DNA of 64,000 nucleotides from Oidiodendron maius Zn (lineage: Eukaryota; Ascomycota; Leotiomycetes; Myxotrichaceae): the NCBI GenBank assembly GCA_000827325.1, contig KN832873.1, positions 448,245-512,244 of the forward strand, written 5' to 3'. This document shows, piece by piece, positions 47,521-57,537 of this stretch. Within the stretch, counting starts at the first letter, position 1. The number at the start of each line of letters is the position of its first letter. The translations under genes were made by a program, and so were the position numbers. The notes under the pieces were generated by a model. The model was not told the origin of the DNA. It saw nothing but the letters and a program-made list of their open reading frames with translations, and did not search any database.

Positions 47521-48856
47521 TTAAGATTTAGGCAACGGCAGGGGTTTAGCTAAGTCTGGCTGGGATTTAGCTGGTCCCTTTAAAAAACTTGATGAAGTAA
47601 TACTCTCCAACAATTCATCCTCGACAATAAAGACATCCTTGAACTCGTCCAGATCAAAGGCATCCATCTTTCTGACCTCCACAAAGCAGATTTCATCACA
47701 CCTCACTCTTCGATACATGTTAGGCCAGTTAATATTCGATTCTCGCAAAGGTTGGAGATAAATATATATGCGAAAGAATCTGCCACCTCGCAGTTGATTG
47801 CAATTCAACTCGGCAAGAAAAGTCCCTGTTCTCTCTTCTTTCAACCGCAGCTTAATTGACAGACCTAAGTTGGTCATTGTGTATGGGGTCATCTGGTTAT
47901 TCTTGAAAACGGGGAATAGCCGATACATCCCAACCAAGTCAGCGAAGGCGACTGGCGAACTAGCGAAAAGGCTGCTACTAATTATCGGTGCTCGCCAGGC
48001 GAAGATACTGTGATCATAAGACGTACTGATGATCTCGTACTGGAGCCTCTTGAAAGCTTTCGTCTTGCCTTCGCCATATATAATAGGCATGTTGACTTTA
48101 AAGATGCCCAAAAGGCAGTAAGCAATGTCTTCCTCTCGTGTAGTCTCGCGATGCGCGGCCCATCTCATACGCTCGGCAATTGGTAATAAGGGAATGTCAC
48201 TTTTGTTTATGAGATATTGCGGATGAAACGAGATAATTATCCCGAGAGTTTGCAGGAACGAGCTCTCTGGGTCTGACTCTTGCGTGACGGAGCCGATTCT
48301 GACCCAGTTCCGGTCGTAGAAAAATATCGTGTCGGGGGCAAGTAACTCTTGCAGAGTCCACTATTCTACAACGGTTAGGGCAAAAGAGCCAAGCCATATA
48401 GCCCAATAACATCCTCCCTCTGCTGCATCGCAAATGGAAATGCGAACAATATGAATTAGAGTGACATACGCCTCTGGTAAACCAACGGCTCTTCTTGAAT
48501 TCTGTGGTTGGAAAGCCTGAGGTCATCAGCACGTCGGCTAGGTAGACGAAACACTCTTGCGATCTCCTATACCAGTTGAACATAGAATTGATAGCCTCAG
48601 ACAGCTCTGCACTGCTTCGCTTGTCGATGCAGCACGAGTCGACCCACGCATACTTATAGCCATGGGCCGCGGCTTTCTCGCAGCACTTCTTGACCTTGAG
48701 GTAGCCAGATTTGCTTTTTGTCTCGTTGCGTTGCTCCTGTATCTCCTGGAAGTCCACTTCCTCGGTGCCCCAAGTGTGTGATAGAATAGCGTAAGGCGGA
48801 ATGTTGGAGCCTAGGAACTCACGAAACTGGAGGGTGGAGACATCTAGGAGTCTCAT
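47521..48856 (-). CDS. HET-domain protein (HET-E/D-type head), 408 residues
   Basis: Exons on minus: 48856-48470 and 48360-47521 (109-bp intron GTATGT..ATAG). I start at the ATG giving MRLLDVSTLQFREFLGSN rather than 22 codons upstream, since MRLL-type openings are usual. Motifs: PPYAILSHTWGTEEVDFQE, YAWVDSCCIDKRSSAELSEA, SRWFTRG spliced to WTLQELLAP, and EEDIAYCLLGIFKVNMPIIYG. This is the HET class that often precedes NACHT or NB-ARC domains. Here the frame ends after a further 130 residues with no NTPase, so it is a stand-alone HET protein. It may act with an NLR encoded elsewhere; that is inference. Confidence 0.88.
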
Positions 48857-50208
48857 ACTGAATAGCGGTACAGCTGAGAGTAAAGACGTGAAAAAATCAG
48901 GCCAAGTATAGACGAGCGACACAAGGAGTTTATTGCTCGCAGTGCGTTACTGCCCAATGCCCAGTTCAGTTCAGTGCGATTTCTATTCGGCTGTAGCTGC
49001 TGTTGCGAATCGTACAGTGCATCTGTAAGCTAGCCTCGTTTGAGCGCAGCTTAGTACAACCCCGAATACTGCCACTCTGGGCCTCGTGGGTTGGAAGTGA
49101 TGAGCTAAAGTAACAATGGTTGTGCTATGAATCCCGTGGTGTAATGAAAGCATAAAATGGCGTTTAAGTTTGAGCACAGGTTGTAATATGGTCTGTGCGT
49201 TATGCAACACTGTATAAATAGGCAGCATCTGTAAAAAGTTTTACAGTACGTAGTTAGAGTCTTTAGAGTATATCATAATTACCTCGTGGGACATAATCAC
49301 TAAGCTTATGATATAAAGTTATAGCCCGTACATTGTAGGCATTAATGCTCACGCAGGAGAAGGCAGGGGTCTAAAGTTGAGCTAGCTTTCCTGGTAGTAC
49401 TGTAGAAAGTGTGACTAAAATAAATCATCGATTGTTCGGAAGTGGAGCCGATTTCGAACTTGACTGCAAGGTCACGAACTTCTCTTTTGAGTAATTTACT
49501 CAGTAATGGAGGCGGGTAAAACATTGAAGACGGATTGAGCTATGTTTCTTATCAATGCTGCCTAAGGCGGAGAGACTCGAGTCAGGCAGAAGCGGCAGAG
49601 AGCGGGGGAAGAGAACAATTTAGATTGGCGCCGGAGGATGCAAACCGTCGTGGACCGCGATCCAGAAGGCAAGACAGGACAAGGGTAGGCTTACCTATTA
49701 TAGGCAGGTCCGTTAGGGGGCGCAAAAGGAGCGCCATGGCACGGGACAAGCTCCGGTGCAGCAGGTACTTGGCAGGACAGAAATAAATTTCCTTGGCAGA
49801 TGGCAACCGGTACTTGACGACTCGGGCGGGAATCAAGGTGAAACGACGTGAAAGACTGCCAGCTTTTACCGTTTGGAAAGAATTATTCTATGCCACGGCG
49901 CGGAAGCGGCTTGTTCCTGGTGCCTTATTGACAGTGAGTGCTTAAATTACGATCTACCTTCCCAACAAGGACTCGAGCGTGCAGATCTTCCTGAAGGATG
50001 ACAAGGCAAGCGCGCTGCGACTTACACATCAACTCGAGACGCGACTGAGGACCTTCTTTAAATGGCACCCCTGTCGAAATGAGATGGTAAGCTCAGGAGC
50101 TTGCCAGGAGCTTGCCATCGTACATATAGAGGGGCTCGTTCGCTGAAGATAAATTCTTGAATTGGACCTCCCTTCAGCCCATTCACCACTCGGATTGCCC
50201 CGTCCAAC
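48857..50208. other. intergenic, with a possible decayed coding patch
   Basis: 1.35 kb. At about 49,950-50,085 plus, one frame reads IYLPNKDSSVQIFLKDDKA, then LRLTHQLETRLRTFFKWHPC, and 49,790-49,930 reads TRAGIKVKRRERLPAFTVW; both look protein-like but match no family I can name. They may be leftovers of a broken gene. The last 120 bp are the sedolisin promoter/leader. Confidence 0.35.
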
Positions 50209-52207
50209 ATGGCTAAATTAACAGCTCTACGCCTCGTCAGCGCCCTGTCCCTCGTGGGCGCACAAGCTTCTGCCGCTGTGCTCCTCGAGCAGCTCGCACA
50301 GGTGCCTACCGGATGGAGTGAGGTAGACACGCCGAGCCAGTCTTCGCAGCTGGTCCTTCAAGTTGCCCTGACGCAGCAGAATATTGATCAATTGGAGTCA
50401 AGACTGGCGGCTGTGTCTATGCCAGAATCAAGCTCATACGGGAAATATCTTGATCTCGATGACGTCAATGCCATCTTTGGCCCAAGCCAAGCCAGTACCG
50501 CCGCCGTCGAGTCCTGGCTCAAGTCTTACGGCGTGACAGACTACACCAACCAGGGGAGTAGCATCTGGTTCCAGACCAATGTTTCGACTGCCAATTCGCT
50601 GCTGAGCACAAATTTCAAGACTTACAGCGACTCCACTGGTGCAACGAAGCTTCGGGCACTTGAATACTCTGTCCCTGAAAGTCTTGTCCCTCATGTCGAT
50701 CTTATCCAACCCACTACTTTCTTTAGTGCAACCGCAGCCATGAGGGCCACGAAGTCCAGGAATGCGGCGGCAGCTGCTAATTTAGCCACCCGCCAAGAGC
50801 CTGCTAGCTGCAAAGGAACTCTGGTTTTCCAAGGCGAAACATTTAATGTTTTCCAACCAGATTGCCTCCGGACCGAATACAACGTGAATGGGTACACGCC
50901 AAAGGCAAGTTCTGGCAGCAGAATCGGGTTTGGTTCTTTCCTAAACCAGAGCGCGAGCTTTTCGGACCTTGCCCTGTTCGAGCAACACTTCAACTTCCCT
51001 AGCCAGAACTTCTCCGTTGTCCTGATCAACGGCGGAACAGATCTGCCCCAGCCACCCGCCCTTGCAAACGATGGCGAAGCCAATTTGGACGTCCAAAACA
51101 TTGTGAGCATCGCGCACCCTCTGCCGATTACAGAATTCATCACTGCTGGAAGCCCACCGTACTTTCCAGATCCCGTTGAGCCAGCTGGAACTCCGAACGA
51201 GAACGAGCCCTACTTGCAATACTATGAGTTCCTTCTCTCCAAGTCCAACGCAGAACTCCCGCAGGTGATTTCAAATTCCTATGGCGACGAGGAGCAGACA
51301 GTGCCACAATCATACGCAGTGCGCGTGTGCAATCTGATTGGCTTGATGGGCCTTCGCGGAATCTCTATTCTCGAATCGTCAGGTGATGAAGGTGTTGGAG
51401 CCTCCTGCCTCGCTATTAATAGCACCACCGTGCCTCAATTTAACCCTATCTTCCCAGTATGAACACCGAGTCACAATCCATCAGAACACGCTGACTGCTT
51501 TTAGGCAACATGCCCCTACGTCACTAGCGTGGGTGGAACTGTGAGCTTTAATCCCGAGGTCGCCTGGGATGGCTCATCTGGCGGCTTCAGCTATTATTTC
51601 AAGAGGCCATGGTACCAGGAGATTGCCGTCGGATCGTACCTCTCCAAATACGTTAGCGCGGAAACGAAGGAATACTATTCTTCCTTTGTCGACTTCTCCG
51701 GCCGTGGTTTCCCGGATGTCGCGGCTCACAGCGTGTCTCCCGAGTGAGTATCATCCGATTCCAGAATTGTTGATGATGACTGACACCTAGCCAAAGCTAT
51801 CCTGTGTTCCAGGGCGGTGAACTCACCCCAAGTGGAGGAACTTCCGCAGCCTCTCCTATAACTGCCAGCATCATTGCCCTCATAAATGATGCCCGTCTAC
51901 GTGCCGGAAAACCCACACTCGGGTTCCTCAACCCCCTGATTTACCTGTATGCCTACCAAGGCTTCACGGACATCACAACTGGCCAGACCGACGGCTGCAA
52001 TGGGAATGATACTCAGACCGGCGCCGGCACACCTGGTGTAAGTATTTGACGTAGCGATATGTGGTGAAATCACGATCAATACTAACTTATGAATAGGCTG
52101 GTGTTATTCCGGGAGCACACTGGAATGCGACGAAAGGATGGGATCCTACAACTGGCTTTGGTGTGCCAAACTTTGAGAAGCTTCTACAACTAACAAGCAT
52201 CTTCTAG
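50209..52207 (+). CDS. secreted sedolisin (tripeptidyl-peptidase type, S53)
   Basis: Four exons (50209-51456, 51505-51743, 51791-52037, 52097-52207) give 614 residues. A signal peptide ([17 protein letters not shown]) is followed by the pro-kumamolisin prodomain to about residue 200. The catalytic domain has Glu290 and Asp294 in DGEANLDVQ, the oxyanion Asp360 in SNSYGDEE, and Ser514 in [10 protein letters not shown], the complete S53 set. Toward the C-terminus NGND and [13 protein letters not shown] form the conserved calcium/terminal block. Function: acid secreted peptidase releasing tripeptides from proteins outside the cell. Introns are 47-59 bp with standard ends. Nothing is missing, so it should be active. 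Confidence 0.93.
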
Positions 52208-53021: not shown

Positions 53022-53475
53022 GTAACGTCCCTCCCTGTGTGCCGAGAAACCTGTGTGCCGAGAACTAACGAGCATTGATTAGCTGAACAACATCAATTTG
53101 GAATTAGAAGTAACCATATTCTCGGGATAGAGAAATTAAGCTCCTAGCTTTATCTTAACTCCATTTCAATGAGCTTGTGGCATTTATCCTATATAAAATG
53201 CTACTTTAACCCTTAAATGTATTTTGACCTTGTTGTCCTAATTCTACCTTAGCTACCCAAATTACGATTAACTTACGAGAAATTTCTAAAACTCTAGTTT
53301 AGAAGGTAAAGAGGCTATCCCGAGAGTTTGTCCCATTTTCTTATCATACTTGCGCTGCTGCAATCATTTGCATACGACTCAATATAATTGATGGACAAGG
53401 TCACGACCGCAATCTTGTAAGGTATTACCTAAAGTAGTATAGCCAAGGAAACGTGTGGCTGGTGTCGTGGCTAGA
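53022..53475 (+). repeat. left inverted repeat flanking the HET-NLR gene
   Basis: Begins GTAACGTCCCTCCCTG, followed by CGAGAAACCTGTGTGCCGAG. It is homologous, in reverse orientation, to 57537-57101. The outer 45 bp match at about 41 positions. Further inward, blocks such as GGCTATCCCGAGA (near 53,311), GCTGCTGCAATCATTTGCAT (53,355), ATGGACAAGGTC (53,391) and GTGTGGCTGGTG (53,453) recur in the same order and at nearly the same distances. Identity falls to roughly 60-70% by eye in the interior. Confidence 0.78.
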
Positions 53476-53694
53476 TCGAAGAATGCAGGTTCTGTGAAGC
53501 ATCACGTGACTGCGGGGCTGAGCCTCCAGGCCGACACAGGAGATCGCAACCGCCTCAGTGCTGTGCTGCGGGACGGAGCCTGCACTCTTCTTCGCGATGA
53601 GTCTTCTCATGTTAAGTGAACTTTGTTATAACAATCGGCTTTCGTTATTTCATCCAGATCGTCGTAGCGCGCGTTACGACATGCCTACGCCAGA

Positions 53695-56600
53695 ATGCGC
53701 CTTATCTGGAGCAAACCAGGCGGCGGCTTCAAGCTAAGCACCTTCAACAATGACGACATTCCTCCCTATGCGATACTGTCCCACACATGGTCGGAAGGCA
53801 AAGAAGTTACATATGATGAGCTGGTTACTGGTATAGGCAGGAATAAGGCTGGCTATGCCAAACTCTGTTTCTGCGGAGAAAGAGCTGCAAAGGACGGCCT
53901 GAATTACTTCTGGGTGGACACTTGCTGTATCGACAAGCGGGACAATGTCGAGCTCAGTACAGCTCTTAATAGCATGTTCCGCTGGTACCAGCGTGCGACC
54001 AAATGCTATGTGTATCTCTCGGACGTTCATGTCCCAGATGAGGCTCCTGATGCACAAGAATTTCGAATAACATGGGAGGAAGCCTTTAGGAAGAGTCGTT
54101 GGTTCACTCGAGGCTGGACTTTGCAGGAGCTCCTCGCACCAGCTAGTGTCGAGTTCTTCTCGGCGAATGGCAAGCAGTTAGGCAGCAAGATAACGCTGGA
54201 GCAAGAGATTTATGAGATTACACAGATCCCCATCAGAGCGTTACGGAACTATGATCTCCGTGAGTTCATGGTTGATGAGCGGATGAGTTGGGTTACGGGC
54301 CGCAAGACAACCGTCGAAGAGGATAGGGCATACTGTCTGCTAGGGATTTTTGGTGTATTCTTACCGCTAATATATGGTGAAGGAGAAGAGCATGCACTTG
54401 GAAGGTTGAAAATGGAGATACAACGACACTTGGGTACATTACATAGCTCATATATAGCAGATTCACAGAGGATACCTGGTATGTTTCTTTTTGCCCTTAT
54501 GGTTCCGATACTGGCTTGAATTTAGCTCACAGTATGCAGCCTCTAAGCTACTACCATTTTCACGAAATGAATTTTTTGTCGGGCGCAAAAACCATCTCCG
54601 GACCCTTCAAGAACAGCTTCGTCCATCGAGTATACATCAGCGAATGTCTATCTATGGGCTAGGAGGTGGTGGTAAGACGGCGCTGGTTCTCGAACTCGCA
54701 TATCGGATGATGATGAAGTATTCTGGGCTTTTAGTTCTCTGGGTACCAGCTATAAGTCGAGAGACATTTGATATTGCGTACCGTGAGATAGGGACCTTGC
54801 TCGGGATATCGGGAATCACGGACGACAATGCTGACATCAAGCAACTCGTCAGGAATAGCCTGAACTTAGGCGGTTCTAGTGATTGGCTGATGGTTGTCGA
54901 CAATGCTGACAACCCTAACATCCTCCTGGAGGACATAAGTGATGGTCCACAGTCAGGCCGACTATACGACTATCTCCCACGTGGCGATCGAGGCTCGATA
55001 CTCTTCACAACACGAGGCAGGAAGGCGGCTGAGCGCTTGACGCCGGGCAATGTCTTAGAGCTCGAAGATATGAGCAGGCTTGAGGCGAAGCAATTGATAG
55101 CACGGCGAATCTTGAACAAAGCATTACTTAACGATGAAAGCGCTATAAACAAATTGCTTGAGATTCTAACGTGCCTGCCGCTGGCTATTGTACAGGCGGT
55201 CGCCTTCATCAATAGCAATCAAGTTTCGATTTCTGACTATGTTTCACTATTTAAACAAGCTGACACGGAAGTTGAGATCTTTAGTGAGCGCTTTGATGAC
55301 CCAAGCAGATATCGAGAGACGGAAAGCACGATAGCGAAGACGTGGCACATATCATTCGACCAGATCATGAAGCAGGACCAGCTTGCTGCAGGCTATCTGT
55401 CCTTTATAGCGTGTGTGGATCGCGTGAACATTCCACAGTCGCTGCTTCCCCATGATGGTAGCACGGTGCAGCAAGTCAAGGCGCTTGGCACGCTCACAGG
55501 ATACGCCTTTATTTCAGAGCGCCAGCATGATTCACAACTTCCAGAAGAAGAGAGACTCTTTGATGTCCATCGACTGGTGCAAAAGGCGACTGTATGGTGG
55601 CTAAAGGAGCACAGCGACTGGACAGCCTGGACAGAGAAGGTATATTGCAGATTGGAGGAGATAGTCCCCTATGGTGGACATGAGAGACGACAAAAATGGA
55701 TAAATTATCTACCGCATGCGAAGCATGTAAGCGGCCTTCATAATGAGCTGAGCGAGACGAGACGAGCCTCACTTCTCGATCGGATCGGGAAATGTCAAGC
55801 CACGTTGGGTCAGTACACAGCAGCGGAGGCGACGCATCGACAAGTGCTTATGTTGAAGAGGAAGGCTCTAGGGGATAAGGACGCATCAACACTTATTAGT
55901 ATGAATGAAGTGGGGTGGGCACTTGGCGGTCAGGGCAAGTACAAGGAGGCAGAGACGATGTACAGGCAGACGCTGGCATTGATGGAGAAGGTGCTCGGCA
56001 AGGAGCATCCGGACACGCTAAGGACAATAAACAACTTGGCGGAGGCGCTGGACAACCAGGGCAAGTACAAGGAAGCAGAGACGATATATAGGCAGACACT
56101 AGCGTTGAAGGAGAAGGTGCTTAGCAAGGAGCATCCGGACACGCTGACGACTATAGACAATTTGGCGGGAGTGCTCGGCGAGCAAGGCAAGTATGAGGAG
56201 GCAGAGATGATGTACAGGCAGACGCTAGCGTTGAGGGAGAAGGTGCTCGGTATAGAGCATCCAGACACGCTAAGGACAATAAACAACTTGGCGCTCGTGC
56301 TGGGCAAGCAAAGCAAGTACCAGGAGGCAGAGACGATGCACAGGCAGGAGCTAGCGATGTGCGAGAAGGTGCTCGGCAAGAAGCACCCGGACACGCTGAC
56401 GACCATGAACAACTTGGCGGCAGTGCTGGACGACCAAGGCAAGTATGAGGAGGCAGAGATGATGTACAGGCAGACGCTAGCGTTGAGGGAGAAGGTGCTC
56501 GATATAGAGCATCCAGACACGCTAAGGACAATAAACAACTTGGCGCTCGTGCTGGGCAACCAGGGCAAGTACCAGGAGGCAGAGACGATGCACAGGCAGA

Positions 56601-56917
56601 CGCTGGCATTGAAGGAGAAGGTGCTTAGTAAGGAGCATCCGTCCACGCTATTGAGCGTACACTGTCTTGCACACTCACTCGCAAAGCGAGACTCTTTTGT
56701 CGAGGCCACTACTTTGTATCAGAGGGCGTGTGAAGGCTACAGCGTGGTCTTTAGAGATGATCACCCAACTGCACGTGCATGTCGGCGACATTATCTAGAG
56801 ATGCTTCAAAGAAAAGAGAAAAGTGAGCTCATATCGACAAGTGAGGCATCACGTACTGTACCGAACAATAAGAAACCAAGAAGCGAAGATGGAAGCTGGG
56901 GTGGCCAGATGCATTGA
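53695..56917 (+). CDS. HET / NB-ARC / TPR NLR-like protein, 1,053 residues
   Basis: Exons 53695-54478 and 54540-56917 (61-bp intron GTATGT..TGCAG) join in frame. Residues 1-260 are the HET domain: IPPYAILSHTW, YFWVDTCCIDKRDNVELSTA, SRWFTRGWTLQELLAPASVE, EEDRAYCLLGIFGVFLPLIY. After LLPFSRNEFFVGR comes NB-ARC: P-loop IYGLGGGGKT (about 299-308), Walker B DWLMVVDNADN (about 376-386), GSILFTTRGRKAAERL and CLPLAIVQAVAFI. Residues 727-978 are six 42-residue kinesin-light-chain-type TPRs, with weaker units on each side. This is a complete fungal NLR: death effector, switch and repeat sensor. The near-identity of the TPRs suggests recent repeat turnover. It is flanked by long inverted repeats, and a HET pseudogene lies just beyond. 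Confidence 0.93.
55934..56689 (+). repeat. six tandem 126-bp TPR-coding repeats
   Basis: Repeats begin at 55934, 56060, 56186, 56312, 56438 and 56564, exactly 126 bp apart, each coding GKYxEAExxxRQ...EKVL..HPDTL..... Units 3 (56186) and 5 (56438) differ at only 3 of 126 bases. Units 4 and 6 share the KYQEAETMHRQ start, so a 252-bp two-unit block was probably duplicated recently. Confidence 0.92.
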
Positions 56918-57100
56918 ATGTCAAGACTATTACGTGGGCTAGCAAAGCTCAGGATTAGAGCCTTGAAGCATGAGAAGTATGTCAAACTATGGATTGGAAT
57001 TTCGGCTAGCCTTATATATATTCGAACGCTACTGAGTATAGAATGGCATTTCTCTATGTAGCAAGACGTTACAGCTAGCACGTCGGACTTCTCGCTTGGG
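56918..57100. other. 3' region of the HET-NLR gene
   Basis: Short stretch between the stop codon and the right inverted repeat. No gene. Confidence 0.5.
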
Positions 57101-57537
57101 TAGCTGCACCACCAGCCACACCTCATCCGCGGCTACACTACTTTGAGCCATATCTTACAGACTACGGTTCGACCATTGTCCATGGATTGCAGCCGAGTGC
57201 TATTTAAATGACTGCAGCGGGGCAAATATCATAAAGTGGAAGACACATAATCTCGGGATAGCTTCTCTATATGCTGAACTAGATTTCAGAGAAGTTTCCT
57301 CGCAAACGAGACGGAACATAGGCAGCTGAGCTTGAATATGCTCAAGATGTGAAGTGGTATTACCCTCGAAGTAAAGGTCGCAAGCATATGAGAATAGCAT
57401 CTAAATAAAGCTGAATGCTTGCGATCTTTATTCCGAGGATAATTTATTTCCTAACATAAGGTTGACATCATTCTGTGGCAAAACGGTTGCGAGTTCTCGG
57501 GACACAGGGTTTCTCGCCTCGCAGGGAGGGACGTTAC
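57101..57537 (-). repeat. right inverted repeat flanking the HET-NLR gene
   Basis: Reverse-complement counterpart of 53022-53475. Read on the minus strand it starts GTAACGTCCCTCCCTG and continues through CGAGAAACCCTGTGT, AAGCTATCCCGAGA, GCTGCAGTCATTTAAATAGC, ATGGACAATGGTC and GTGTGGCTGGTGGTGC, in the same order as the left copy. Homology ends before the gene's stop codon. Confidence 0.78.

Follow-up and report, generated by a model that had tools for sequence, protein, structure and literature searches.

A 64-kb window of the Oidiodendron maius Zn genome (assembly GCA_000827325.1, contig KN832873.1, forward-strand positions 448,245 to 512,244) contains an immune receptor-type gene enclosed by a pair of long inverted repeats. 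The window is the whole stretch of DNA that was analysed (64,000 nucleotides), and coordinates given without a contig number are positions within it. The enclosed unit occupies positions 53023-57536 (4.5 kb) and holds one intact gene encoding a HET domain, an NB-ARC-like nucleoside triphosphatase (NTPase) domain and TPR repeats. The features of this locus are as follows.

53022..53475, plus strand: left arm, a long subterminal inverted repeat (77% identity to the right arm, 406 columns)
53023..53024, no strand: left TA, putative target-site duplication, from the sequence
53023..53065, plus strand: left terminal inverted repeat including the TA (end model 45.7 bits, E 4e-13 in the window)
53695..54478, plus strand: receptor exon 1, HET domain (PF06985 E 3.1e-11, 44.3 bits, cut-off 22.5); start codon and exon end inferred
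54479..54539, plus strand: inferred 61-bp intron (GTATGT...GCAG), predicted from two frames that join without a stop
54540..56917, plus strand: receptor exon 2, NB-ARC-like NTPase and TPR repeats; stop codon at 56915-56917
55796..56725, plus strand: 126-bp repeats encoding TPR units (six 300-nt copies in register at a spacing of 126)
57101..57537, minus strand: right arm, a long subterminal inverted repeat, from its alignment to the left arm
57494..57536, minus strand: right terminal inverted repeat including the TA (end model 53.9 bits, E 1e-15 in the window)
57535..57536, no strand: right TA, putative target-site duplication, from the sequence

With the predicted splicing, the joined receptor frame is 1053 residues long and has no premature stop. 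The Pfam match of exon 2 to TPR_12 is strong (E 1.2e-99) and that to NB-ARC is borderline, at 23.4-23.5 bits for a cut-off of 23.5. The original prediction, which was made from the sequence alone, had named this a HET/NB-ARC/TPR gene; the HET and TPR portions of that description are clear, and the NB-ARC portion is only borderline at the cut-off. Relatives with HET, NB-ARC and TPR domains are present among the 120 relatives listed, where the named ones are nearly all from ascomycete fungi and one row is labelled Quercus suber. Judged by its predicted domains, the gene is a HET/STAND receptor (STAND, signal transduction ATPases with numerous domains) of the NOD-like receptor (NLR) type, with a HET effector, an NTPase (NB-ARC borderline) and a repeat domain. 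It is presumably expressed and working in non-self recognition.

The same sequence flanks the gene on both sides in mirrored orientation, as had been predicted. Positions 53022-53475 and the reverse complement of 57101-57537 align from end to end with 312 of 406 columns identical (77%). The global score of this alignment is 252.5, far above that of 500 dinucleotide shuffles (mean -0.2, maximum 35.5), and the local score is 150, against a maximum of 30 among shuffles and random pieces of the window. The outermost 45 bases of the two arms are identical at 40 positions, close to the 41 or so first counted. Both ends read inward as TA followed by ACGTCCCTCCC, and the TA borders that had been claimed are thus seen on both sides, which is a feature of Tc1/mariner elements. 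A scan of the whole 64-kb window with the end model, at E values up to 5, identified these two ends and no others; neither arm carries such a sequence on its inner border. Besides the receptor exons, the only open reading frames (ORFs) of at least 100 amino acids between the arms are antisense overlaps or an overlap of the receptor 3' end and the right arm, which agrees with the earlier claim that nothing but the NLR gene lies inside.

These ends are members of a family that is dispersed in the genome (45.9 Mb searched, in 58 contigs; contigs are numbered with C and loci with L below). Leads were obtained with 13 end bases and at most 1 mismatch, giving 111 matches and 81 for the reversed pattern, so that many were chance matches. 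Sixteen lead loci were aligned and 12 kept for an end model of 46 positions, in which the right terminal inverted repeat of the window element is one of the 12 rows. A genome pattern of 30 places, with 3 or fewer mismatches allowed, then identified 123 matches to the 43-bp end, 61 in forward and 62 in reverse orientation; the reversed control pattern gave none. The original prediction had proposed a search for further copies of the ends, and these counts reveal a dispersed family. The copies are at many unrelated places with unrelated flanks, and pairs of them enclose differing genes. Both ends of the window element have 43-column blast matches to ends of such sibling elements; for the ends of the transposase-encoding sibling L056 these matches are at 79-84%. 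TA borders are present on both sides of 10 of the 11 complete elements tabulated, the exception being L062, with TA and CA. Arm length varies among the siblings: the local arm match covers 192 columns at 76% in L054 and 27-115 columns in the other ten, and a special role for the arm length of about 440 bp was rejected on account of this variation.

Two distinct subterminal sequences were seen by eye just inside the 43-bp end, one per end, near TTTAGGGG and near AGGTACTTTG. The pair is present in L055, L056, L057, L059, L060, L061, L063 and L070. The kind near TTTAGGGG is the one from which the transposase of L056 and that of L059 are read. It is possible that the two kinds could serve as promoter or polarity signals.

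The full sequence was examined for 12 elements with two inward-facing ends. Their cargo is as follows.

Window element: HET-NB-TPR
L054: HET
L055: HET, NACHT and WD40
L056 (C30:84806-91836): HET-WD40 and a transposase
L057: HET
L058: NACHT with DUF7791
L059 (C31:70249-77066): HET, NACHT and WD40 (WD40 by eye) and a transposase relative
L060: HET
L061: short-chain dehydrogenase; another ORF, with no Pfam hit, looks by eye like the end of a Zn2Cys6 factor
L062 (C17:302042-305140): near-identical C2H2 zinc-finger repeats
L063: NACHT with ankyrin-like repeats (repeats by eye)
L070 (C25:64150-73746): enoyl-CoA hydratase and ORFs without Pfam hits

HET or NACHT genes are therefore present in 9 of the 12 (the window element, L054-L060 and L063). 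In L055, and likewise in L059, the ORFs in separate frames probably belong to a single gene as its exons. Four of the elements (L054, L055, L056 and L059) were retrieved with a HET match inside already known, and L063 after a NACHT match. The six retrieved without a known immune match are L057, L058, L060, L061, L062 and L070, three of which (L057, L058 and L060) contain immune genes. L070 is 9.6 kb with 45 of 45 end bases matching, and may be the same vehicle carrying a small metabolic cluster. The zinc-finger gene of L062 is another cargo gene that is internally repeated.

Transposases with matching terminal repeats, for which a search had also been proposed, are found inside such ends. The pogo-type transposase ORF of L056 is open over 597 amino acids, with DDE_1 (3e-33) and HTH_Tnp_Tc5 (2.1e-5) matches and 35 residues between its second and third D (D,D35D), and it shares an end pair with the HET-WD40 gene. 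A relative with 84-86% identity to it lies in two frames of L059. Thus two complete elements, L056 and L059, combine a transposase with a HET-WD40 or a HET-NACHT-WD40 gene. Transposase remnants are present in L061 and L070. A different pogo-type transposase, 35% identical to that of L056, is located at L051, from the end at C38:18768; this too has DDE_1 and HTH_Tnp_Tc5 domains, and its second and third D are separated by 35 residues. On the TA borders, the shared ends, the D,D35D motif and the Tc5/CENP-B-type helix-turn-helix (HTH), the family can be assigned to the pogo/Fot1 group of Tc1/mariner, an assignment made from sequence traits. At L051:4969-9899, a family end is followed by the transposase and then by HeLo and NACHT ORFs, with one end seen; this is possibly a second autonomous lineage with HeLo-NLR cargo.

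The 74 rows of transposase relatives in this genome were merged into 69 loci and compared with the listed ends and with the immune lists other than that for PF06985. At a distance of up to 6 kb, 7 of the 15 loci of the closer family have a listed end and 5 have an immune locus. For the 54 more distant loci these numbers are 2 and 3. Among 992 transposase relatives, the 120 that were listed show no fusion with HET or NACHT in their Pfam domains, and the named relatives include Lachnellula, Pseudogymnoascus, Cadophora and Rutstroemia.

The cargo bias was assessed with the 100 ends listed of the 123. Inward-facing pairs formed 15 distinct elements of 3-10 kb, once the 446-bp pair C1:868055-868500 and the overlapping C1:868055-877486 had been dropped and four end combinations at C18:350819-359290 merged into one. 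HET or NACHT genes, recognised by matches or by reading, are present in 11 of these, other genes in three, and one (C4:156412-164991) is unread and has no match in the immune lists. Without the window's own element, 10 of 14 have immune cargo. Adding L059, whose left end was recognised by reading, brings the set to 16, and 11 of these have a match in the search lists; the HET gene of L060 is absent from those lists and is not counted. Among 5000 draws of segments of equal length on the same contigs, the count averaged 1.8 and never exceeded 8.

The single ends point the same way. Immune loci at a distance of up to 6 kb are found inward of 43 of the 100 listed ends and outward of 9. Random positions gave a mean of 8.8 and a maximum of 17 (1000 draws) for comparison with the 43, and ends shifted by 15-60 kb a mean of 12.0 and a maximum of 22. 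Binomial p-values for these end statistics count both ends of one element and so overstate independence. Viewed from the genes, again within 6 kb, 20 of 125 HET loci of the query's type have an inward-facing end, 5 an outward-facing end and 2 both; for NACHT these numbers are 10 inward and 0 outward of 89, and for NB-TPR 7 and 1 of 73. The top 150 loci of the control family Zn_clus (Zn2Cys6) have 0 inward and 1 outward; MFS_1 was dropped as a control, with 9 of 810 candidates scored, and Zn_clus used instead. The genome has a large HET/NLR repertoire, with 481 first-look candidates for PF06985 (150 scored) and 145 for NACHT (89 scored). For NB-TPR 55 of 211 candidates were scored and for the HET protein 137 of 198. 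The rows used were 125 of 135 for HET and 73 of 100 for NB-TPR, the remainder being judged by eye to repeat loci already included.

Candidate paralogous empty sites were sought by joining the flanks of each element and searching this genome. The joined flanks of L059 match a place on C30 (L064) at 172 of 176 bases without gaps, with a single TA at the position of the element; they also match a second place, on C1, where there are two gaps away from the junction and a single TA. Those of L057 match a place on C1 (L065) over 96 bases at 91%, gap-free and with the TA included. The flanks of L056 match many repeat copies, and eight joined flanks, including those of the window element, have no match across the junction. 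A copy of the target repeat of L059 is located exactly between two outward-facing family ends at C1:867912-868084 (L069), and is perhaps a preferred target. Relatives of the window's right arm are found at four other genome loci. One of these, L043, has the last codons and 3' flank of the receptor (84%, 182 columns) followed by the arm (82%, 394 columns), in the same order as in the window, and its homology to the window element stops at the outer TA.

Taken together, 53023-57536 is very probably a non-autonomous Tc1/mariner transposon of the pogo/Fot1 group that carries one complete receptor gene. That an NLR gene is the cargo of a non-autonomous element was the central claim of the original prediction, and it is supported by the end family, the sibling transposases, the paralogous empty sites of some siblings and the L043 copy. 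The 43-bp terminal inverted repeats, which extend into the arms of about 440 bp in a unit sitting at a TA, would be bound in trans by a transposase encoded by a sibling, and the transposase would then move the unit by cut and paste. This sequence of events follows what is known of pogo/Tc1 biology. A transposase of the sibling type would be expected to act on the diverged ends of the window element, and strains would be expected to differ in having its receptor, a consequence that the original prediction also named as possible.

Several observations weigh against a mobile, receptor-carrying element. There is no transposase inside the unit by ORF scan, and the arms have diverged (77%), so the window copy may be old or immobile. 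A search of this genome with its joined flanks found no empty copy, and three aligned empty copies of the L056 target (two gap-free, one gapped elsewhere) lack the junction TA. L043 is truncated, with receptor sequence found only for residues 754-809 of the query, and the copies L044-L046 are arm sequence only. Non-immune genes are the cargo of 3 of the 12 elements read (L061, L062 and L070). In the closer transposase family, 10 of 15 loci are more than 6 kb from any listed immune locus, and hence most copies are not now beside receptors. The bias is also weak for the top 150 PF06985 loci (7 inward, 4 outward); it rests on receptors of the window's HET type and on NACHT, and much less on the top PF06985 scorers.

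The arm identity, the absence of an internal transposase, the truncated related copies and the missing empty site would all fit a real element that is now a fixed relic, in which the receptor was enclosed long ago and has since spread by ordinary gene duplication. This is unlikely, since the receptor frame is intact, the outermost bases are conserved (40 of 45) and a sibling with a transposase ORF of intact length is present. Somewhat less probable again is that the gene is not cargo and that two independent miniature inverted-repeat transposable elements (MITEs) of one family landed in opposite orientations around a host receptor. Short elements with such ends do exist, for example the inward pair of 446 bp on C1, and both the ends and HET genes are abundant in the genome. 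However, neither arm has an end sequence at its inner border, the inner count of 43 in 100 far exceeds the random (8.8), shifted (12.0) and outward (9) values, and L043 holds the receptor 3' end and the arm together. A chance pair of MITEs was rejected on the window end scan, the inner and outer statistics and the Zn_clus control.

It is very improbable that the unit is a fragment of a giant Starship-type element. NLR and HET genes are indeed carried by Starships, according to the available text of two reports (PMC9594970; PMC12134995), but the unit has two complete ends within 4.5 kb and no further large ORF, and siblings of 3-10 kb with the same ends hold DDE_1 transposases. No Starship captain is present in the 4.5-kb unit, which holds the receptor gene only (no search for a tyrosine recombinase was made in the surroundings), and this candidate was rejected on the ORF content of the unit. 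A local inverted duplication around the gene, unrelated to transposition, could have made arms that are long and non-identical, but it is scarcely credible where the same ends recur at many unrelated places, with unrelated flanks and in pairs enclosing different genes. The HET and NACHT cargo might also have been captured simply because such genes are abundant near the ends in repeat-rich regions; the controls with shifted and with outward-facing ends speak against this being the whole explanation. A bolder possibility is that such cargo might benefit the element or its host.

Classic Fot1/pogo elements are not known to hold more than a transposase. The elements described here share with them the TA borders, the terminal inverted repeats, the DDE_1 and Tc5/CENP-B-type HTH domains and, in siblings, D,D35D, and differ in that the units hold a receptor gene, with or without a transposase. 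Fot lineages of filamentous fungi have been listed, in the part of that report available (PMC3599309). The nearest published case found, within the accessible portions of the literature, is Icarus of Pyrenophora tritici-repentis, a 294-kb element classed as a Starship that has terminal inverted repeats and DDE endonuclease genes (PMC9594970; PMC12134995), with a HET gene in one isolate and the captain absent in both isolates described there, as far as the accessible text goes (PMC9594970; PMC12134995). In Starships and Icarus, too, the cargo of a mobile fungal element includes NLR and HET genes. Starships, as portrayed in those portions, are giant, hold many genes and have a tyrosine recombinase captain, whereas the elements here are 3-10 kb, usually with one receptor, and have a DDE transposase.

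Other cargo-carrying or gene-associated elements are known from excerpts of the reports concerned. ToxhAT is a fungal DNA transposon of the hAT type bounded by terminal inverted repeats (14 kb, 74-bp repeats; PMC6737239). Like the window element it carries a non-transposon gene of adaptive weight, but it is, on the excerpt, a single element with effector cargo, whereas here a pogo-type family repeatedly carries differing receptors. In Fusarium oxysporum, mimp and mFot5 MITEs are located beside SIX genes, with one mini-cluster flanked by inverted repeats, in the text available (PMC3599309). Those too are Tc1/mariner-type miniature elements tied to one gene class, but they are described there as separate MITEs upstream or downstream, whereas in the present elements the gene is enclosed by a single pair of ends. 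The HNWD genes of Podospora, het-d, het-e and their relatives, have the HET-NACHT-WD40 architecture of L055 and L059 (PMC1805685, in part); a single pseudogene is reported next to a transposon relic, and enclosing repeats are unmentioned in the available part of that report (PMC1805685). In the open-licence literature searched, to the extent of its accessible text, no description was found of small pogo/Fot1-type ends enclosing receptors. What is new here is the pogo/Fot1-type vehicle and its striking cargo bias; cargo-carrying DNA transposons were already known.

In fungi, both the number and the presence of NLR and HET genes are highly variable. A cut-and-paste family with mostly one complete receptor per unit would be a route for the gain, loss and copying of receptors, and possibly for their horizontal transfer. 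Part of the fungal immune repertoire appears to be mobile. A gene with the HET-NACHT-WD40 architecture, that of known incompatibility genes, is found alongside a transposase within a single unit. A further consequence is that repeat masking can hide immune genes in fungal genomes. A broader proposal, which is tentative and for now the less probable side of the question, is that there is a lineage of small Fot1/pogo transposons, autonomous and non-autonomous, specialised in HET/NACHT receptors of many architectures (HET, HET-WD40, HET-NACHT-WD40, NACHT-ankyrin, HET-NB-TPR and perhaps HeLo-NACHT). Such a lineage would copy and reshuffle the repertoire, and the receptor may aid the persistence of the element. 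The receptor would then be a defence, or a weapon against nuclei without it, like the defence genes on bacterial mobile elements.

Elsewhere in the window, a further HET gene of the receptor's type is located at 48031-48817 on the minus strand, with no family end nearby. An exon of an S53-type protease with a Pro-kumamolisin domain is present at 50161-51462. Its best named relatives among those listed are from Trichoderma (76-80%), above those from Leotiomycetes (about 50-54%), and on these identities the protease was possibly acquired by horizontal transfer.

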